Positions 4,813-63,066 of a stretch of DNA of 64,000 nucleotides are shown piece by piece. Below the pieces are notes generated by a model, which was given only the letters and a program-made list of their open reading frames with translations, was not told the DNA's origin and did not search any database. The stretch comes from Clostridium sp. KNHs214 (GTDB taxonomy: Bacteria; Bacillota; Clostridia; Clostridiales; Clostridiaceae): assembly GCF_000744935.1 (NCBI RefSeq), contig NZ_JQMW01000011.1:1054001-1118000 (forward strand). The letters are read 5' to 3'. Positions within the stretch are counted from its first letter, which is position 1; each line of letters begins with the position of its first letter. Position numbers and translations under genes: made by a program.

Positions 4813-4840
4813 AAATTGTAGTTATACCTATTACATAAAT

Positions 4841-5001
4841 TAAGGCACATTCAAATAAATAACAAGTCAGTATGCTAGTCTATTTTGCGTCATACTGCGT
4901 CAGCAGAACCCACCGATAGTTATACTAGCGGCGGAACCTGCTTCCTTGTCTGACACAAAATATACCTGCATCTTTGACTTGTTATTTATTTTCATGTATC
5001 T
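4841..5001 (+). repeat. Dispersed 160-bp inverted-repeat element, copy A
   Basis: The left end reads TAAGGCACATTCAAATAAAT and then AACAAGTCAGTATGCTAG. The right end is its imperfect reverse complement (TTTGACTTGTTATTT, then CATGTA). The centre carries GCGTCATACTGCGTCAGCAG and CTGCTTCCTTGTCTGACA. Five other full or partial copies occur at 18049, 29692, 36205, 43171 and 62976. No ORF is present. It has the form of a MITE or of a structured RNA. Confidence 0.85.
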
Positions 5002-5014
5002 AATCCTCAAACTT

Positions 5015-5221
5015 TTACTTTTGTAGCTGCTTATTGAGAAGAAATATATTTTCTATTTCATTTCCATGTTCATCATAATATTTTACATCTGCTCCTGTTA
5101 TATATCCTAATGTATCTCTATCAAGTACACTCCCTTGAATCTTTAATAATGCTTTTTCATCCATAGGTAGCTCTACTTCTTTTGTTTCATAATCTCTTTG
5201 GCATACTATCTTTACTTTCAT
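5015..5221 (-). CDS. Small hypothetical protein (68 residues)
   Basis: Starts MKVKIVCQRDYETKEVELP and contains one Cys. The pattern of alternating charged and hydrophobic residues suggests a small beta-rich fold. An upstream in-frame ATG (5230) directly abuts AAAGGAGA, so the ATG at 5221, nine to ten bases downstream, is the better start. It is a single gene next to repeat copy A. I do not recognise the family. Confidence 0.65.
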   Translation of the reverse strand: MKVKIVCQRDYETKEVELPMDEKALLKIQGSVLDRDTLGYITGADVKYYDEHGNEIENIFLLNKQLQK

Positions 5222-13305: not shown

Positions 13306-13386
13306 ACAAAAGGTACAATGCGGTGAAATTATGAAATTTCTCTGTATTGACTTGCATAAGAAACAAAGAAACTATTTAACTCTAAA
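13306..13386. repeat. Half of a foldback element
   Basis: GAAATTATGAAATTTCTCTG, TGACTTGCATAAGAA and AACTATTTAA match the left arm of the 300-bp foldback at 35397-35707 in the same order. The rest of that element is missing. It abuts the stop codon of the SEC-C gene at 13387. Confidence 0.7.
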
Positions 13387-18032: not shown

Positions 18033-18048
18033 ATTCAATAGCCAAGCT

Positions 18049-18210
18049 TAGGCACATTCAAATAAATAACAAGTCAGTATGCTAGTCTATTTTGCGTCAT
18101 ACTGCATCAGCAGAACCCACCGATAGTCCTACTATCGGCGGAACCTGCTTCCTTGTCTGGCACAAAATATACCAGCATCTTTGACTTGTTATTTCTTTTC
18201 ATGTACCTTA
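18049..18210 (+). repeat. Dispersed 160-bp inverted-repeat element, copy B
   Basis: Full-length copy, nearly identical to copy A at 4841 (same orientation). It carries a cleaner central hairpin, CCGATAGT/ACTATCGG at 18120-18138. It ends CATGTACCTTA. Confidence 0.9.
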
Positions 18211-18322
18211 TCTAATTTTATTTTATTATTTTTTTCTGTAATCGTTTCACAATCTTTCAATATTTTTAAAAATCAGATAAAATGTATTTATACTCTTAAA
18301 ATTAGAAAGGCGGCTTTTATTT

Positions 18323-22017: not shown

Positions 22018-22527
22018 ATGATTAGCCAAAGATTATTTGATGAACTAAACAAACAGGTTAACTATGAATTTTATTCTGAATACCTTTATTTAGCAATGGC
22101 CGCATACTGTGAATCGTTAGATTTGGAGGGTTTTGGAAATTTCTTTAAAGTTCAAGCAGAAGAAGAAAGATTCCATGCTATGAAACTTTTCAATTATATA
22201 AATGAAATGGATGGAAGAGTTACTTTAGATGCCATAGAAAAACCTTGTAATGAATATGAGTCTGCTTTAAATGTATTTGAAAAAGCTCTAGAACATGAAA
22301 AGTTTGTAACTAGCAGAATCTATCATCTTAGCGATATAGCTACTGAAGAAAGAGAGCATGCTACTATAAGCTTCTTAAAATGGTATATAGACGAACAAGT
22401 AGAAGAAGAAGCCAGTTTCAGTAAACTTGTAAAAAAACTTAAATTATTAAAAGATGACAGCCACGGTTTATTCATGTTAGACTCTGAACTTGCTCAAAGA
22501 ACTTTCACACCACCAGTTACTAACTAA
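22018..22527 (+). CDS. ftnA: Bacterial non-haem ferritin
   Basis: 169 residues from ATG 22018 (AGGAG 8 bases upstream). Iron-storage four-helix bundle. Ferroxidase ligands: Glu in YEFYSEYLYLAMAAY, EEERFH (Glu and His) in the second helix, and the downstream Glu residues in EEREHATISFLKWY. No haem-binding Met as in bacterioferritin. It stores Fe(III) and limits peroxide damage. It is followed by a structured repeat element that may double as its terminator. Confidence 0.93.
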   Translation: MISQRLFDELNKQVNYEFYSEYLYLAMAAYCESLDLEGFGNFFKVQAEEERFHAMKLFNYINEMDGRVTLDAIEKPCNEYESALNVFEKALEHEKFVTSRIYHLSDIATEEREHATISFLKWYIDEQVEEEASFSKLVKKLKLLKDDSHGLFMLDSELAQRTFTPPVTN

Positions 22528-22540
22528 AAGCATATATTAC

Positions 22541-22651
22541 GAAGTAAGTGCAATAAGAAAAATCACACTTTAAGTTCATAAAAAAATTGTAATTTGGGAC
22601 TAATCACAATTTTTTTATTCCCTTAAAGTGTGATTTTTCGGTTCATGCATA
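22541..22651. repeat. Foldback element F1
   Basis: Outer arms AAAAATCACACTTTAAG and CTTAAAGTGTGATTTTT pair perfectly. An inner stem AAAAAAATTGT/ACAATTTTTTT follows. The outermost ends, TATGCATGAACCG and CTTATTGCACTT on the minus strand, are shared with F3 (39820-40080), yet four consecutive bases of the outer stem differ in both arms in a complementary way. It may also terminate ferritin transcription. Confidence 0.75.
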
Positions 22652-22704
22652 GTTTAGGCCTACTATTTGTGTCATTAGGTAAAGTATATATAAGCCATTA
22701 TGTA

Positions 22705-23267
22705 TTATTTTCTTTTTATATAATAATCACTATAAGGAAAGGTGTTGTTCTCTAATTTGTCAAAACTATTATTCTCCAAGGCTAAAACTCTTTCTTCATC
22801 GTCTTTAGTTGCTTTAATGATAATATTTTTAATATCAAAGTCTGCATAAAAATTATCAGAAACCATTCTTAAAATTTCAGATAAAACTATTTTATTTTCA
22901 AGAGATGAAATGATGTCTATTCTTAATATACCAGTCTGACAAGCACCATCCCAAAATCTTGTTGTATTAGGAACGGGTGCTATTTCGATAGTGCCTACTA
23001 TCTTATTTGTCTGCTTATGATTAATACTCCATCTTATATAAAATCTATCGTCAAATTCTTGCTCCACCCCTTAATCCCCTTTATTACAGTGTCAATATTG
23101 CGTGTATCCCATACACCGCCACAATTATCATTATTCATACGATTTTTAGTAATCGAATCAGAATAGCACTCAAATAAGTCTATTGCGTCTTCCTCTTTAA
23201 CTTTTGTAAATATTAAGTTATTGGTTTCATAAACTGGACACTTATCAAATGGATTAATATTACTCAT
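22705..23267 (-). pseudogene. Frameshifted GNAT acetyltransferase
   Basis: Two overlapping frames make one RimJ/RimL-like GNAT. The first (ATG 23267, behind GGGGG) covers the N-terminus (NNLIFTKVKEEDAIDLFECY) and ends past GIKGW. The second continues EQEFDDRFYIRWSINHKQ and TNKIVGTIEIAPVP to the C-terminus (FDKLENNTFPYSDYYIKR). A single-base deletion near 23060, in the GGGGTGGAGC run, explains the break. It could be a real pseudogene or a sequencing error; only re-sequencing can tell. Confidence 0.75.
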
Positions 23268-23339
23268 TATTGGATACCCCCATCTTTGTATATATAACTT
23301 TCATATAATTATATAGCATATTGTTATATAATTTCAAAT

Positions 23340-23545
23340 ACTTAGCATAATTAGTTCTTTTATTGGCGGCAGCCAGCCTAAATACTAAAGCTAAGATTTA
23401 TATAACCCTATGCCTTACGTCAAAATATATTAAGTCTTATTTACCTTTTTATTTTGATAAGTAATTATTTATTACTCTGGAAGTTTAGCACTTTAAAATT
23501 TTGGAGCGTGGCCCCGTTGATTTATAATGAATAATAGAGATATAG
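23340..23545. repeat. Repeat-derived spacer before F2
   Basis: No gene. TTATTGGCGGCAGCCAGCCTAAATAC recurs with two changes at 39462, also ahead of a foldback element, and TGCCTTACGTCAAAAT recurs near 39635. This suggests a compound mobile remnant. Confidence 0.55.
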
Positions 23546-23785
23546 ACTGAAAAATATGTCTTTAAGGTAACAATAAATATACTTTTTTAGACTATTGAGC
23601 TAGCCTTAGAAATTCTTTGTTTTCAAATTTCAATACCCGTTAAGAAGCTTTCATGTTTGAGCGCCGTCAGAAGCGAGTTTGAAAGATTTAGGGTATTGAA
23701 ATTTGAAAACATTAGAATTTCTTGGCGTATTGCGAGTAGTCTAAGAAAATATATTTATTGTAGACTTAAAGACAGATTTTTCTTT
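23546..23785. repeat. Foldback element F2
   Basis: A near-complete palindrome of about 240 bp. The interior is almost identical to F3 at 39820 (CTAGCCTTAGAAATTC, CGTTAAGAAGCTTTCATG, GAAGCGAGTTTGAAAG, CTTGGCGTATTGCGA). Its right end overlaps the last codons and the stop of the symporter gene at 23766. Confidence 0.85.
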
Positions 23786-24935
23786 TAGCAATGGTATCTA
23801 CAATTATTGCTATAGCTCCATCGCCTGTAACATTAGTAGCTGTTCCAAAACTATCTTGTGCAGCATGAAGGGCAATCATAAGTCCCTGCTGAGCTAAGTT
23901 AAACATAAGCATATCTTGAAGAAGTCCCAAAGATGCCATAACTCCTCCACCTGGTATTCCAGGTGCCGCTACCATAGTTACCCCTAGCATTAATATAAAT
24001 GGGAACATAACGCTAAAAGTTGGAATAACACCATTCATAATCATAACTCCCATAGATGCTAATACTAAAGTTATTGTATCACCCGCTAAATGTATAGTGG
24101 CACATAGTGGAATGACAAAATCATTTATACCCTCTGAAATATTATTCTTCCTTGCACTTTCCAAAGTTATAGGTATAGTTGCTGCTGATGATTGAGTTCC
24201 TAAAGCAGTAAAGTATGCTGGCATCATATTCTTAATAGACTTAAAAGGTTTTTTTCCACTTACCATCCATGCCACACTATACTGTACCAGTAAATAAGCT
24301 ATTTGAAGTAAAAATAAAATAATATATACTGATGAAAATGCCTTTAATGTTCTGAATATATCCCCGGAAATAGTCAATTTAACAAATATGCCTATAATGT
24401 ACACTGGTACAAAAGGTATTAATATATTTTTAACTACTAAAGATACTATATCTTGAAAATCCTTTGCACCTTGAAGTAATGTCTTTCCTTTTATTTTTGA
24501 CATTCCAACCCCAAGCATAAAAGCCATTACAAGTGCTGTCATTACTCCCATAACAGGATCTATCTTTAATGAAAAATAGGGTTTTATATCTACTCCTGAT
24601 TTTTTAGTTATTTCTCCTGCCTTCAATACCTTCGGTAATATAGACATTCCTACAAAATATGAAACTGTGCCCGCTATTACAGTTGAAATGTATGCAATAG
24701 CAGCAGTCAACGCTAATAGTTTTCCTGATTCTTTTCCCAAATCAGCAATTCCTGGTGCCACAAAAGCTATTATTATACAAGGAATTATAAATCCTAAAAA
24801 AGCCCCAAATAATTCACTAAATGTAACAAAAGCTCTAGGTATAGCGTAATTGCCCACCTTCAATGATACTGACCCGATAATAATTCCTAAAATGATTCCT
24901 AATATAAGTCTTGGTAATAAACCTATCTTTTTCAT
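23766..24935 (-). CDS. Dicarboxylate/amino acid:cation symporter (DAACS)
   Basis: 389 residues, about eight membrane helices and two re-entrant hairpins. Family signatures: GTQSSAATIPITLESA (first hairpin), LCATIHLAGDTITL, and NVTGDGAIAIIVD (the N-x-x-G-D substrate/Na+ site). It imports glutamate, aspartate, serine/threonine or dicarboxylates with Na+ or H+; which one is unclear. AGGGGG precedes the ATG. Its C-terminus (KRKICL, stop) is encoded by the end of foldback element F2, so the original tail was probably replaced. Confidence 0.9.
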   Translation of the reverse strand: MKKIGLLPRLILGIILGIIIGSVSLKVGNYAIPRAFVTFSELFGAFLGFIIPCIIIAFVAPGIADLGKESGKLLALTAAIAYISTVIAGTVSYFVGMSILPKVLKAGEITKKSGVDIKPYFSLKIDPVMGVMTALVMAFMLGVGMSKIKGKTLLQGAKDFQDIVSLVVKNILIPFVPVYIIGIFVKLTISGDIFRTLKAFSSVYIILFLLQIAYLLVQYSVAWMVSGKKPFKSIKNMMPAYFTALGTQSSAATIPITLESARKNNISEGINDFVIPLCATIHLAGDTITLVLASMGVMIMNGVIPTFSVMFPFILMLGVTMVAAPGIPGGGVMASLGLLQDMLMFNLAQQGLMIALHAAQDSFGTATNVTGDGAIAIIVDTIAKRKICL

Positions 24936-29478: not shown

Positions 29479-29691
29479 ATTTATTCCTTCTTTCTATAAT
29501 GTCTCGTATATACCCATACAAGAATTTTATTTATATATTCAATCCCTTATTATAAGTATAACATTTTATTCAATGTTGTTTTTACAAAATATTGAAACAT
29601 ATTATTAATCAAATGTCTTCTATATCACTGTCCTCACATATGCTTTTCTGAATGTTTTGTTATTTTTTTATTTCTTATTATAAATAAAAAT

Positions 29692-29855
29692 TAAGGTACA
29701 TAAAAAGAAATAACAAGTCAAAGATGCTAGTATATTTTGCGTCAGACAAGGAAGCAGGTTCCGCCTTTGGTAGGACTATCCGCGGGTTCTGCTGACGCAG
29801 TATGATGCAAAATAGACTAGCATGCTGACTTATTATTTATTTGAATGTGCCTTAA
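29692..29855 (-). repeat. Dispersed 160-bp inverted-repeat element, copy C
   Basis: Full-length copy, inverted relative to A and B. It begins TTAAGGTACATAAAAAGAAA and ends TTTGAATGTGCCTTAA. The TAA stop of the large signalling gene (29852-29854) is formed by its last bases. Confidence 0.9.
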
Positions 29856-32800
29856 ATCATATTGCTTATAATTTTAGCTAAGGTATCAACAAAATTGAAA
29901 TCTTCAAAGCCAAACTCTTTAGTTCTAACAGAAGCCGATAGGTATAAAACAGCGTTAATATTGTCGTTTTTAATCAGTGGTACTACAACTATTGAGTGCC
30001 AATCTGGTGACCCAGTTATTGTATCTTTTTGTATTACATTATCCCAGTCAATAGCATATATACCGTGTTTCTTTTTCACTACTGACTTTATCATATCATC
30101 ATTTAAATTAATATTCTTATTCCACTGTTCTTCAAAAGCTTTTCTTGAAAAACTTTCCGTTATGCTCTCATCTTTTATCTTTAACAATGTTCCATACTGA
30201 GCTTCAGTTATTTCAATTATTCTACCTAAACTTTTATATATTTTTTCTTCTAAACTCATATTTTGATTTAATAGTTCTATTAGTTCTACCATAACTAACA
30301 CGTTTCTATTGTTTTGCACTTCATTTCCAGTTATTATACCTGTGAGTTTATTTGTTACTTTGACTTTATTTATTATATCCTCTTGCCAAATTCTACATTG
30401 GTTTCTTCCTCTTTCTTTGGCTACATAAAGAGCCTGGTCTACCTTTTCTATCAACTGTTGTTTCCATTGCCCATGCTCTGGATATGCAACTATACCCATG
30501 CTTACTGTAATATTATCTTTATCTCCTAAAATATGAGCCTGCTCAATTTTTTGTCTTAGTTTTTCAGCAACTTCTTTAGCATCCTCTATACTAATATTTT
30601 TAAGCAAAATAATAAATTCTTCACCGCCATACCTACCACATATATCAGTACTTCTTATATTATTTTTTACTATACTACATACCTGTTTGAGTACTTCATC
30701 ACCTGTTTGATGTCCATATTTATCATTTATATTCTTAAAATAATCTAAATCAAACATAATCATAGAGAATATTCCTTTATTTTCTGCTGCCATATCTAAA
30801 TTTTTTTCTATCTCTTCTTCTAAATATTTTCTTGTCAAAGTTGAAGTTAATTTATCATATGCAGCTATTTTATTTAATTTATATTTTTCTATAATTAAGC
30901 CAATTAAACCATTTAGTAAAGTACAATTTTTTAGGGATTTAATATTAAAATTATTTAATGCTCTATCTGAATTTACATAAACATATGCCATTATATTATT
31001 GTCATATACTTCATTGTCTCTACCTTCAAAACCTCTACGATTCTCCAATTGAAGAATTACAGGAATACATATACATGCTTTTATATTCTTTAAATTTTCA
31101 ATGTCGTTGGTTTTATATTTATCAATATTAGAAACCAGTACTATATCTTTATTTATCTTACATAAATTTAAAATATTTATATCTTCTTGTGTTAGAAATT
31201 TATCATTTCCACTGTATATAATTTTTTCAAATCCATTGTTTTTTTCCTCAATTATATAGGCATTTGTCCCCATTGTAACATAAAGCATATATTGGAGTAT
31301 TAACTTTAAGTTGTCCATTTCATTTGAAGTCAACTTTTTTAGAACGGATTTTATGTCGTGTACTTGATTATGATATAGTGAGCTATAGAAATTTTTAACA
31401 GACTTTACAAAGTGTTTATTATCCATTATATTCTTGTAGTTTATAAAACTTAATACATCCTGTATTTCTTTTATATCTATTTCTTTTATGTCTATTTCTT
31501 TTATGTCTATTTCTTTTGTATTTATTTTATTTGAAGCCTTAGAATTTCCATAATAGTATTCTTTTATATATTTCAATGTGCCTACGATTTCTTTTATATT
31601 ATAAAAACTTATAAAAGTCTTTTTGTACTTTTCTGGCAACTGTTTTATTATATCCATTAATACTTCGCAGCATTCAAAATAATATACAAATGAATTAAAA
31701 TAATCTTCTTTTTTAAAATAATAGCTTCCTATATCACTACAAACTCTACTTTCTAATTTTTTATTTCCTTCTTTTTTAGCAAAATCTAAAACACTACTTA
31801 AGGCTTTTAATTGATTGTTCTCGCTATATAAAGCCTCTAAATAATTTATATACATTTTTAAATAATTTATTTCCCTATTATCTGAAAGCTCTATGATCTC
31901 TTTTAATATTTCTTTTCCTTCACTATACCTGCCCCTGTCATATAAAAAGCTTGCTACTTTACACAACCACTGAATTTTTACATTACTATTATTAACCTTG
32001 AATAATAGTTCTTTCATATCATTTACTATTTGTGTTATTCCGTCTTCCTCACTTTTAATTAGTTCTATATATTTTAATAAAAATTGACTATTAATTTGAA
32101 CTAATGGTTCCTCTTTATCTATGGAGTTTACTACCCTTTTTAAAAATTTTTTAGAACTTTCCAAATCACCAAATTCCAGAGCCAGTTCACCAAAAGCACT
32201 ATAATACTCCAAAATGTCTTTATCGTTTATATGGTACTTGTCCAATTCTTTTCTCGACAAATTACAATACTCATAAGCTTTTTGATAGTTCCCTATCTTA
32301 AGATGTATTTTGGCTTGAAATACATAAGAATAAAATACATTAGCTTCTAAATCATATTTTTTAGCCTTTTCTTCAACTCTTTGAAAATATCTTAAAGCAG
32401 CATAATAGTCCTGCTGATAAAAATACCCTTCCCCTAAATTGTTAATAGCAATTATTTCACTAATTATTAAATTGTTTTTTCTGCTTATTTCAATAATTTC
32501 ATTATAAACTCTAGAAGCTCTTTCAGTATCTTGATAAAAATCACCATATATAACGCCCTTATTATTAAGTGCTATTACTAAACCTTCTGGTTTATTTAGC
32601 TTTGTAAATACTTCTATGCTATTATCTAATGCTTCATCTGCCTTTACTGGCTCGCTATTTACTATGAATATAAATGAAAGCATATTATAAAAAGGCCCTT
32701 TATTTGCTTCAAACTCACCTAGGCAAAGTTTAATAGATTGATTACATATGTCTTCTGCTTCCTTGTATCTTCCTTGCACATTATACAATCTAGCTTGCAT

Positions 32801-35396: not shown

Positions 35397-35707
35397 GATT
35401 ATCCCACAATAAGTATTACATTGCTTGAATTATGAAATTTCTCTGGAATGACTTGCATAAGAAGCGAAGGAACTATTTAAATTTAATTTTAGAAATTCTT
35501 CTTTTAGACAGATAAAATTATCGTAAGCCTGGCAAGGACGCCAGGCTAGCGAACCTGAGGCAGGACGCTGAATGTGAGCGTTAGATAATTTTATATGGCT
35601 AAAAGATTAGAATTTCTTAAATTAAATTTATTGTTCCTAGCTCTTATGCAAATCATGGAGGAGAAATTTCATAATTCCATTACATTCTACCTTATTGTGG
35701 GTTAATC
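35397..35707. repeat. Foldback element F5 (about 310 bp)
   Basis: Two arms of about 120 bases are imperfect reverse complements: CCCACAATAAG, GAATTATGAAATTTCTC, CTTGCATAAGA and ATAAAATTATC on the left all reappear complemented on the right. The centre holds GCCTGGC/GCCAGGC and a second hairpin (AGCG...CGCT). No ORF. A half copy lies at 13306-13386. It fills most of the gap upstream of the giant gene. Confidence 0.85.
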
Positions 35708-35715
35708 ATTATTAT

Positions 35716-36034: not shown

Positions 36035-36204
36035 TTTAAATACCCCCCATGCAAAACTGATTTGCTAATACCATTGTATCGAACATTCGTTCGCAAGTCA
36101 ATAGAAAAAAAGATTACCTTGAAACTTTTTTTATTTTCAAAATAATCCTTTATGTTGTCTATACCATATATGGCCACTCCGATACTATTTTAAATATAAT
36201 CTAT

Positions 36205-36364
36205 TTAGGCACATTCAAATAAATAATAAATCAATATGCTAGTTTATTTTCCGTCATACTGCGTCATCAGGACCCGCCGATAACATTGCGACAGAACCTG
36301 ATTCCTTGTCTGACACAAAATATACTAGCACATTTGACTTGTTATTTCTTTTCATATACCTTAG
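36205..36364 (+). repeat. Dispersed 160-bp inverted-repeat element, copy D
   Basis: Full-length but diverged copy in the A/B orientation, with a degraded central hairpin. Its right end (TTGACTTGTTATTTCTTTTC) runs into the reading frame of the P-type ATPase and provides that protein's last residues and stop. Confidence 0.85.
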
Positions 36365-38546
36365 GTTTATACTTTAAAATTCTCATAGAATTAAATATAG
36401 CAATAAGTGCCACTCCCACATCTGCAAAAACTGCTTCCCACATATTTGCTATACCTAATGCTCCCATTAATAATACTGCAAATTTTACGCCCAATGCAAA
36501 AATTATATTTTGCATTACTATCTTTCTTGTAAACTTAGATATATCTATTGCAGTAACTACTTTGGATGGTTCATCTGTCATAAGAACTATATCTGCAGCC
36601 TCAATTGCAGCATCAGAACCTAATCCTCCCATAGCTATTCCTATATCTGCTCTTGTTAAAACTGGTGCGTCATTTACTCCATCTCCTACAAAAGCAATCC
36701 TTCTATTTTTTCCAAGGTTACTCTGTTCTTTTTCAAATATATCCACTTTATCTCCAGGTAAAAGTTCACTATAAACCTTGTCTAAATTTAACTCTCGTCC
36801 TATACCTTCCCCTACAGTTTTATTATCACCAGTAAGCATAATTGTATTTTTTACACCTATATTCTTAAGTCTTCTTAAAGCCTCTTTAGAGTCCTTTTTT
36901 AATTTATCTGATATTACTATATATCCTAAAAATTCACCCTCTGCTGCTACATAAACTACAGTGCCTAATTCTCTAGCTTCTTTAACAACTATGTTTTGCC
37001 ACTTCATTAATTTATCATTACCCGCAAGCACTCTTTTACCCATTACATCTACTTTAATTCCCTTACCAGATACTTCCTCATAATTACTAATTACATCCTT
37101 ATATATTTCTTTACCATAATATTTTCTAATAGAACTAGCAATGGGATGATTAGAGTAAGCCTCTGCATAAGCTACATATTTAACCAACTCATCTTCACTT
37201 ATACCAGTATTAGGAACCACACTAGTAACTTGAAATACACCTTCTGTCAAGGTGCCTGTCTTATCAAATACTAAAGTTTCTACACTATTTAAAGCTTCTA
37301 AGTAGTTACCACCTTTTACTAATATTCCATTTTTTGATGCATTTCCTATACCTGCAAAGAATCCAAGAGGTACGGAAATTACTAGTGCACAAGGGCAGGA
37401 CACCACAAGGAAAATTAAAGCTCTTTTTAACCAATATGCAAACTCAGCTCCCGGTACCACTATTGGTGGTATCACTGCTAAGGCTAAAGCACTAAACACT
37501 ACTATGGGTGTGTAATATCTAGCAAATTTTGTTATAAATTGTTCTGTTTGAGCCTTTTTAGCACCTGCATTTTCTACTAAATCTAGTATCTTTGATACAG
37601 CAGATTCAGAAAACCTCTTAGTTACTTTAATAGTCAACACACCATTCATATTTATAAAACCACTTAAAATTTCATCTCCCACACTAACACTTCTTGGCAA
37701 TGATTCACCTGTTAAATTAGATGTATTTACCATGGATTCACCTTCTAAAACGACTCCATCTAAAGGTACTTTTTCTCCAGGCTTAACTAATATAACATCC
37801 TCAATTTTTACTTCCTCAGGTGATACTTCTTTATACTCATTTTCTACCTTTATCCTAGCTACTTCTGGCCTAATATTCATAAGGTCTGCTATAGATTTTC
37901 TAGACTTATTAACTGCTCTATCTTGGAATGCCTCTCCAACTTTATAAAACAGCATTACAAACACAGCCTCTGGAAAATCTCCTATAGAAAAGGCTCCTAC
38001 TGTTGCTATAAACATTAAGAAATTTTCATCAAATATTTCTCCTTTGAAAATATTTCTTAAAGCTCTTAAAGCTACATCGCCGCCTATAAGTATATAGCTA
38101 CCTAGATACATAATTAACTCTACATAATTAGAAAATTTAAAAATGGATACAATTATAAATATTATTGTTCCTGCCACGACCATTAACACATTATTTTTAT
38201 CTAATCCCTCCTGTCCATGGGCATGAGTATGGGAATGAGAATGTTTATGACCATGGTTATGATCACTGCTAATTTCTTTATCTACTGGCTTTTGAACGTT
38301 TTTTTCTTCAACCACCACATGTGGTTCAATACTATTAACTATTTCTTTTACTTTTTTTTCTACATGGTTAATTTTATTTTCCTCTTTTAAATCTATAATT
38401 AAAGTTGAAGTACTAAAATTAAGTACTGCTTGTTCTACTTCTTCTAATGAATTTACTTTTCTTTCTATTTTGGCCGCACATCCAGCACATCCTAAACCCT
38501 TAAGTATATATTGTTTATTTAATTTGCATTGTTTATCCTTGCCCAT
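36342..38546 (-). CDS. cadA: Cd2+/Zn2+/Pb2+-exporting P1B-type ATPase
   Basis: 734 residues. N-terminal heavy-metal domain with C-x-x-C (GLGCAGCAAKIERKV), then a His-rich linker (HNHGHKHSHSHTHAHG). P-type core: SCPCAL transmembrane metal site (about residue 384), phosphorylated DKTGTLTEG (about 434), TGE loop (LTGESLP), and GDGVNDAPVL. CPC with the His-rich stretch fits Zn/Cd/Pb efflux. It follows the ArsR/CadC repressor by 30 bases. The last residues (KVYEKK) and the TAA come from repeat copy D. Confidence 0.93.
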   Translation of the reverse strand: MGKDKQCKLNKQYILKGLGCAGCAAKIERKVNSLEEVEQAVLNFSTSTLIIDLKEENKINHVEKKVKEIVNSIEPHVVVEEKNVQKPVDKEISSDHNHGHKHSHSHTHAHGQEGLDKNNVLMVVAGTIIFIIVSIFKFSNYVELIMYLGSYILIGGDVALRALRNIFKGEIFDENFLMFIATVGAFSIGDFPEAVFVMLFYKVGEAFQDRAVNKSRKSIADLMNIRPEVARIKVENEYKEVSPEEVKIEDVILVKPGEKVPLDGVVLEGESMVNTSNLTGESLPRSVSVGDEILSGFINMNGVLTIKVTKRFSESAVSKILDLVENAGAKKAQTEQFITKFARYYTPIVVFSALALAVIPPIVVPGAEFAYWLKRALIFLVVSCPCALVISVPLGFFAGIGNASKNGILVKGGNYLEALNSVETLVFDKTGTLTEGVFQVTSVVPNTGISEDELVKYVAYAEAYSNHPIASSIRKYYGKEIYKDVISNYEEVSGKGIKVDVMGKRVLAGNDKLMKWQNIVVKEARELGTVVYVAAEGEFLGYIVISDKLKKDSKEALRRLKNIGVKNTIMLTGDNKTVGEGIGRELNLDKVYSELLPGDKVDIFEKEQSNLGKNRRIAFVGDGVNDAPVLTRADIGIAMGGLGSDAAIEAADIVLMTDEPSKVVTAIDISKFTRKIVMQNIIFALGVKFAVLLMGALGIANMWEAVFADVGVALIAIFNSMRILKYKPKVYEKK

Positions 38547-38995: not shown

Positions 38996-39059
38996 TATGA
39001 TAATATCATAATTTTAATATCGTTGCAACATAAATATAAGAATATATTGTGACATAATG

Positions 39060-39300
39060 CATTGAGGAAAATCTGATTTTAATTCCGTAATAAATGTGTA
39101 ATTGGGGACTGTTCACAATACGCCAAGAACTTCTAAATGTCTCACAGTTAAAGCCCCTAAAGCTTTCAAACTCGCTTCTTACATTGCTCAAATAATGAAA
39201 GCTTCTTAACGGGTCTTTAACTGTGAGACATAAGAAGTTCTAAGGCTAGTTCAATAGTCCCCAATTACACATTTATTACTACATTAAAATCAGATTTTTA
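39060..39300. repeat. Foldback element F4
   Basis: Arms from AAAATCTGATTTTAAT (39068) to ATTAAAATCAGATTTTT (39299). On the minus strand it shares with F2 and F3 the segments CTAGCCTTAGAA, CGTTAAGAAGCTTTCAT, GAAGCGAGTTTGAAAGC and CTTGGCGTATTG. Its long stem (39127-39153 with 39215-39240) has a different sequence from theirs, still complementary. Confidence 0.85.
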
Positions 39301-39333
39301 GTTTAATATGTTTATGGTTGGAGAGAGAAGCCT

Positions 39334-39792
39334 ACTAAAGGATGATTTTCCTCCACTATGTTACGGAAAATCTTTAATTAAATAAATGGGATAACAAAAA
39401 GCTATAACTGTTTTATTAAATGGAGTAGTTATAGCTTTTCTTTAAGGGCTTAAAAATTTTTTATTGGCGATAGCCAGCCTAAATACGTAGGCATGATTAG
39501 GATTTATATAAAAATATATAACTTTAATTGTTAGATAAATAAGAACTTGTAGATAAGTAATAAGTAATAGGTAATAGATAAGAAGTAATACCTTTTACCT
39601 GGTCTAAATTACAAATTCTGATTTGTACAAACAACTGCCTTACGGCAAAATGAATTGAATTTTAGTTATTATTTTATTTTAATAGGTACCATATAACTTT
39701 TCGAAAGGCTCCGCCTAAAAAATATTATGAGCGCCTTTCTATTTATAAATTAAAGATTTTCCATAGCGAAGCGGAGGAAAATTATCCTTTAG
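39334..39792. repeat. Remnant bounded by 49-bp inverted repeats
   Basis: 39334-39382 and 39744-39792 are inverted copies (GGATGATTTTCCTCC versus GGATAATTTTCCTCC, GGAAAATCTTTAATT in both). The roughly 360 bases between hold no gene: a perfect hairpin AAAAGCTATAACT/AGTTATAGCTTTT (39397-39439), the segment TTATTGGCGATAGCCAGCCT shared with 23362, and a GGCTCCGCC-rich hairpin near 39707. Confidence 0.7.
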
Positions 39793-39819
39793 TCAGCTAT
39801 ATTCCTCCTCTGATAGCTT

Positions 39820-40080
39820 ATGCATGAACCGAAAAATCTGTCTTTAAGGTAATAATAAATATATTTTCTTAGACTATTGAGCTAGCCTTAGAAATTCTTT
39901 GTTTTCAAATTTCAATACCCGTTAAGAAGCTTTCATGTTTGAGCGCCGTAAGAAGCGAGTTTGAAAGCTTTAGGGTATTGAAATTTGAAAACATTAGAAT
40001 TTCTTGGCGTATTGCGAACAGTCTAGAAAATATATTTATTGTGGACTTAAAGACAGATTTTTCTTATTGCACTTGCTTCA
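39820..40080. repeat. Foldback element F3
   Basis: A 260-bp near-palindrome: ends TATGCATGAACCGAAAAATC and GATTTTTCTTATTGCACTTG, stem 39891-39917 with 39976-40003. Almost identical inside to F2. Its ends are shared with F1. Confidence 0.9.
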
Positions 40081-40143
40081 CAATATTGTTATGTTGTGTG
40101 TTATAATTTATGTAGAAGTATATTATAGATTGGAGTGAGAATC

Positions 40144-43135: not shown

Positions 43136-43170
43136 ACTTATATTTATCATATATTATCATAGAATCTAAA

Positions 43171-43257
43171 TTAGGTACATGAAAAGAAATAACAAGTGAA
43201 AAATGCTAGTATATTTTGTGTCAGACAAAGAAGCAGGTTCCATACTCTGGACCCTAG
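43171..43257 (-). repeat. Dispersed inverted-repeat element, copy E (half)
   Basis: Carries the TTAGGTACATGAAAAGAAAT end and the adjoining GCTAGTATATTTTGTGTCAG and AGAAGCAGGTTCC, then breaks off. The other half is missing. It sits immediately after the accA stop (43262). Confidence 0.8.
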
Positions 43258-62946: not shown

Positions 62947-62975
62947 ATATTTATATATCACTATAATTATTTATT

Positions 62976-63049
62976 TTAGGCACATTCAAATAAATAATAA
63001 TTCAGTATGCTAGTATATTTGGCTTGTTATTTATTTTCATGTACCTTAG
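62976..63049 (+). repeat. Dispersed inverted-repeat element, copy F (internally deleted)
   Basis: Keeps both ends (TTAGGCACATTCAAATAAAT and TATTTTCATGTACCTTA) and the first 45 bases but lacks about 85 bases of the centre. This shape is usual in internally deleted non-autonomous elements. Confidence 0.85.
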
Positions 63050-63066
63050 TATTTTATATTTTAAAA

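Follow-up and report, generated by a model that had tools for sequence, protein, structure and literature searches.

The question raised by this locus was why copies of one intergenic foldback, sharing the same loops, should carry long stems of different sequence. The first-pass annotation had put this down to covariation in a selected RNA or single-stranded-DNA structure, with template-switch correction of palindromes as a possible mimic. The window (the whole stretch analysed, 64,000 nt) belongs to a member of Haloimpatiens (Clostridiaceae) whose nearest named relative is H. lingqiaonensis; this genome (G000) was compared with a second (G001) and a third (G002) species of the genus, and with more distant relatives.

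Structure of the foldbacks in the window

F2 (23549-23783, + strand), F3 (39831-40063, +) and F4 (39068-39298, -) are imperfect palindromes of approximately 232 nt. When folded as single-stranded DNA, F3 gave -66.8 kcal/mol (z -14.0) and F4 gave -72.6 kcal/mol (z -17.7), and for neither was any of 200 shuffles as stable. The segments CTAGCCTTAGAA, GAAGCGAGTTTGAAAG and CTTGGCGTATTG were found without mismatch in all three foldbacks, as had been claimed, and at no other site in the window; the accompanying claim that these segments are unpaired was correct for the remaining conserved loops but not for AGAA/TTCT and TGAAAG, which are paired. The parts that are both conserved and unpaired are ATTGArCTAGCyTT, TTrGCGTAyTGyGAAC and the loop of the hairpin. 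The long stems of F4 and F3 do differ in sequence, each being complementary to itself, and the outer stems of F1 and F3 differ by compensated changes (CACA/TGTG versus TGTC/GACA), both as first noted. F1 (22534-22651, -) proved to be a core-deleted copy, lacking the inner hairpin, of an end belonging to a third stem class, D; F2 and F3 belong to class A and F4 to class B.

F4 and F3 are the convergent ends of a composite of approximately 1.06 kb (39036-40100). It consists of an outer left end, (A)TAAGAATATATTGTGACATAATGCATTGAGG (39036-39067, +), which is the terminus common to class B ends; F4, scoring 142.2 bits at 39106-39260 with covariance model R2 (described below); a noncoding middle with small hairpins (39299-39830), in which 39299-39387 and 39741-39830 are the inner parts of end modules of approximately 345 bp; F3 (152.1 bits with R2 at 39871-40024); and an outer right end (40064-40100, -; reverse complement TAACAATATTGTGAAGCAAGTGCAATAAG). 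Six further genomic positions carry the composite nearly full length at 93-99% identity (C11:50701, C13:496443, C11:43560, C11:1139324, C11:1331891 and C11:93839), and the repeat unit is thus larger than a single foldback. A second composite, at about 22525-23800, runs from F1 to F2, its right end. The outer end of F1 adjoins the stop codon of a ferritin gene (TAA, 22525-22527). An SDF transporter ORF on the minus strand ends inside F2 at 23766, with its last codons at 23766-23783, so that F2 supplies the C-terminus of the protein and its stop codon.

Copy number and distribution

The core GAAGCGAGTTTGAAAG gave 71 matches with at most one mismatch in the 4.27 Mb genome and none in a reversed control. 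Forty paired elements were catalogued, 38 in this genome (the window element included) and two in the second species; most are 0.8-1.8 kb in length and in all of them the two ends face outward.

Two covariance models were used to collect homologues, as the first-pass annotation had proposed. With model R1 (28 sequences), 61 of 207 genomes from the family contained the fold; with R2 (83 sequences), the count for the order was 96 of 226 genomes at E<=1e-5 and about 69 of 226 at E<=1e-12, E-values for both models being rough and weak matches possibly generic long hairpins. Per-genome copy numbers are lower bounds because 13-14 candidates were scored per genome. The distribution is patchy in comparison with that of the lysine riboswitch, which was found in 55 of 59 genomes. 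No match to the foldbacks was obtained in phages and plasmids by DNA similarity; a core-motif scan of viral contigs returned three stretches, two without a model match and one with a weak match (31.8 bits).

Covariation and type of pairing

Among 28 Haloimpatiens copies, 97.2% of cells were paired, compared to 84.5% after shuffling and 31-55% when the arms were slid, with 266 two-sided cells. For 83 copies from many genera the covariation score was 0.714, against 0.176 for shuffled and at most 0.14 (maximum 0.136) for slid alignments, which is far above background. Across both alignments, 36-39 pairs covaried, with 266-1019 two-sided cells, and the controls were passed; the 83-sequence alignment had been fitted to the covariance model, and MAFFT alignment A1, which was not model-fitted, gave the same pattern.

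The pairing was exclusively Watson-Crick and symmetrical between the two strands. G-U made up 1.9% of pairs, the ratio of G-U to A-C was 1.7 and that of one-sided to two-sided changes was 0.046 (these figures leave out one column that is always G-T, a probable loop position), compared to 10.7%, 13.4 and 0.56, respectively, for the lysine riboswitch of the same clade. G-U was equally rare in foldback copies lying between tandem and between convergent genes. A G-U pair becomes A-C when read from the opposite strand, so near-parity of the two implies that RNA of neither strand is favoured, and the scarcity of G-U places the constraint on DNA, or on both strands, rather than on one RNA. The tolerance of G-U on the transcribed strand that is general for structured RNA was thus seen in the riboswitch and not in the foldbacks. 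The original statement that the covariation marks selected RNA or single-stranded-DNA structure holds in its DNA half, where a single-stranded or cruciform form fits; its RNA half is disfavoured. Strong covariation and a fixed orientation relative to the gene would suit one-strand selection for an sRNA, a riboregulator or an element of the 3' UTR, but in view of these G-U figures, together with the patchy presence and the lack of an Rfam match, such a structured RNA is very unlikely. The comparison with a riboswitch from the same genomes separates pairing at the DNA level from pairing at the RNA level; for many of the candidate RNAs held in databases covariation is the only evidence, and some of them may be DNA structures.

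Conserved loops and changes within stem classes

The loops were conserved across genera (consensus T-GAaCaAGC-TTAG, CGTtAAGAA, AGCGAGTTT, TTTAG and GCG.A..G.GAa), and columns of internal loops exceeded those of stems in conservation, their mean top-base frequencies being 0.80 and 0.69, respectively. Six stem sequences share these loops: A, B and D in this genome, and A1, C and E mainly in the second species. Class A, with F2 and F3, was compared in 45 distinct copies and class B, with F4, in 22; F1 and others make up class D.

Approximately 227 of approximately 243 stem changes within classes (single or paired) were one-sided. The remaining 16 or so compensated cells correspond to about nine independent events, where about 0.9 would be expected by chance. 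One-sided changes in class B (28 A-C versus 20 G-U) showed no RNA bias, unlike those of class A in this genome (62 G-U versus 25 A-C). As changes within classes are mostly uncompensated, selection seems to act on a replicating pool; so single copies drift and break, and it is mainly in the copies that spread or take the place of others that complementarity is maintained.

These data bear on the possibility that the foldbacks are neutral palindromes in which template-switch (quasi-palindrome) correction maintains the complementarity of the arms, with the loops merely escaping it. Strict Watson-Crick pairing and the excess of independent compensated events are what such correction would leave behind. 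However, it should erase asymmetric loops, which are instead constant over many genera, and most within-class changes remain uncorrected; correction alone is therefore insufficient as a mimic, and we consider this explanation unlikely.

Two chimeric foldbacks were also observed, in which arms of two classes are joined inside the conserved hairpin and do not match each other: L093 (1459-1691, -; class A then B) and L042 (1363-1671; class D then A).

Position at gene ends and history of orthologous sites

The foldbacks sit at gene 3' ends, in many cases flush with the stop codon and where a terminator would otherwise stand. Among 74 copies outside Haloimpatiens with both neighbours called (by simple ORF calls), 43 lay between convergent genes, 29 between tandem genes and two between a divergent pair; apart from a few exceptions, it was always the same end of the fold that adjoined the stop codon. 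In Haloimpatiens, 46 of the 74 ends facing an ORF have the stop codon of that ORF as their exact starting point (TAA in 38, TAG in 6 and TGA in 2). The window composite at 39036-40100 is an exception to this rule, being flanked by an arsR-type gene and a zf-like gene whose promoters diverge. In other genera the foldback ends carry an A-tract or T-tract. Many termini begin with TA, but termini also coincide with TAA, TAG or TGA stops, and sites in the third species differ over the whole intergenic region; no clean target duplication was seen at the sites compared.

At the two orthologous sites compared in the third species, plain rho-independent terminators were present. Many elements of the second species occupy the same gene ends as elements of this genome, often with another stem class (A versus C or E, B versus C or E, D versus A1), and the window site is also occupied in H. 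lingqiaonensis (L101). Since most of the Haloimpatiens sites checked are common to two species, no recent insertion was caught there. The same gene ends also carry foldbacks within genus g6 and between g6 and g9; at these sites 219 compensated and 90 one-sided differences were counted, along with class switches. At one g6 site the foldback is intact in G079, while in G080, whose flank is 99% identical, its core has been deleted, and further genomes showed more remnants or an ordinary terminator. At pyrG, one of 14 species (G086) carries a unit, which appears to start at the terminator T-tract. Across these comparisons, foldbacks persist at orthologous sites, switch stem class in place and lose their cores as they decay.

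That foldbacks have remained for so long at the same gene ends, even in two different genera, is compatible with a host function as well. The chief rival explanation is that the host retains the foldbacks as bidirectional transcription terminators or as protectors of mRNA 3' ends, with copies homogenised by gene conversion. Both strands would then have to fold, so that G-U would be avoided on both; the location just past stop codons of mostly convergent genes, the A-tract and T-tract ends, the ordinary terminators where the unit is absent and the predominance of compensated differences at orthologous sites all agree with this. Against it, G-U is no more frequent in tandem copies, where one strand alone is the transcript of the gene, the T-tract-side stems are AT-rich and the hairpin, at 230 nt, is unlike intrinsic terminators, copies gather broken pairs, among which class B shows no preference for G-U over A-C, the genes on either side of the window copy are divergent, and conserved asymmetric loops are unnecessary for termination. 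On balance this explanation is possible but somewhat doubtful.

Comparison with known families and candidate enzymes

Rfam 15 gave no match on F1-F4, and foldbacks of relatives gave at most sub-threshold chance matches, in agreement with the earlier view that no named family fits; a clostridial family of such foldbacks was not found in the literature either. The family is a clade-wide, uncatalogued structured repeat.

The attC sites of integrons are recognised as folded single strands with conserved loops and a free complementary stem, and lie directly after the stop codon in fixed orientation. The foldbacks share the conserved loops, free complementary stems, position and fixed orientation, but are longer; no cassette array or integrase was noticed, and host genes are in the same order at the sites compared with the third species. 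An R-box (GTTRRRY/RYYYAAC) was not apparent by eye at the base of the hairpin. EFAR of Enterococcus faecalis, which Venditti and colleagues are said to have described in 2007, is reportedly modular and inserts into stem-loops, terminators included. EFAR/Efa-1 resembles the foldbacks in being an intergenic palindromic repeat (about 170 nt) in tens of copies (PMC2267715 for Efa-1). Efa-1 consists of two adjacent hairpins and occurs in one species (PMC2267715), unlike the single long hairpin of about 230 nt seen here, with its conserved internal loops and covarying stems in many genera. Intergenic long stem-loop repeats in many copies are also represented by bcr1 of the Bacillus cereus group and by ERIC (PMC2267715). 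These are like the foldbacks in location, form and high copy number but belong to other lineages. A conserved set of internal loops with free stems is not known for bcr1 or ERIC.

REP/BIME elements, which are associated with RAYT (Y1) proteins, are likewise extragenic palindromes at gene ends, and the host encodes RAYT-like Y1 proteins. REPs, however, are 20-40 bp (PMC3733652), against about 230 nt for the foldbacks, and the distribution of RAYT does not follow that of the foldback: 56 genomes had both, 27 the foldback only, 65 RAYT only and 59 neither. Mobilisation as REP elements by RAYT was rejected on this weak co-occurrence (odds ratio 1.9, P = 0.04). Derivation from an IS630/Tc1-mariner MITE (terminal inverted repeats with DDE_3) was also rejected, PF13358 having no match in the genome itself. 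With DDE_3 and RAYT as candidates, no transposase or recombinase was linked to the foldbacks.

Four RAYT-like Y1 transposase genes were observed in the host (L306, 868-1791; L307, 1669-2604; L308, 1420-1971; L309, 1496-2086), of which two (307 and 311 aa) have a long extension at the C-terminus. No foldback was found beside these four genes, save a weak TwoAYGGAY-like match.

A possible folded-DNA repeat

We put at about an even chance the reading that the foldbacks are non-autonomous folded-DNA repeats that target gene ends and terminators and operate in the manner of attC, IS200 ends or REPs. The recognised form would be a folded DNA strand of about 230 nt (hairpin or cruciform), presumably active as single-stranded DNA, in which the variable stems are set by internal loops that are fixed and sequence-specific and by a terminal hairpin that is likewise fixed. 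A putative DNA-processing enzyme (transposase or recombinase) would read the loops of this strand and copy or exchange units, so that stems could drift only as exact complements; its activity would cause one stem class to take the place of another at a given site and would leave single copies free to decay. Copies lie at gene 3' ends in fixed orientation, beside or in place of the transcription terminator, their spread presumably being due to present mobility, and the window composite of about 1 kb may represent two inverted units that spread together. More specifically, it is tentatively possible that an undescribed recombination system, attC-like but unrelated to attC, operates on folded DNA over the Clostridiaceae and swaps stem classes at gene 3' ends through such a loop-reading enzyme. 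If an enzyme does read the loops, this would be a new route for rewriting gene ends, terminators and chromosome organisation, and would bear on the question of how genes acquire attC-like sites.

Other foldbacks in the window

A second intergenic foldback repeat of approximately 165 nt was observed; its arms are long and paired (AGGCACATTCAAATAAATAACAAGTCA...GACTTGTTATTTCTTTTCATGTACCT), and its unpaired loops are large. Copies lie at 4835-5015, 18042-18222, 29690-29865 (-) and 36195-36375, with partial copies at 43143-43241 and 62973-63053; none was matched by R1 or R2.

TwoAYGGAY RNA (RF01731) did not match F1-F4, its sole match in the window being at 35477-35631. This copy resembles the foldbacks in being long and AT-rich and in scoring 43.7-44.8 bits with the models, but its terminal loops are distinct. 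The match was not taken as a sign of kinship, since these scores are no higher than those of true foldbacks on the wrong strand (46-51 bits). The copy lies inside a larger foldback at 35398-35710 (arms GATTATCCCACAATAAG...CTTATTGTGGGTTAATC), and the TwoAYGGAY motif of Rfam may itself be a palindromic repeat. Part of the arms of 35398-35710 recurs at 13310-13385.
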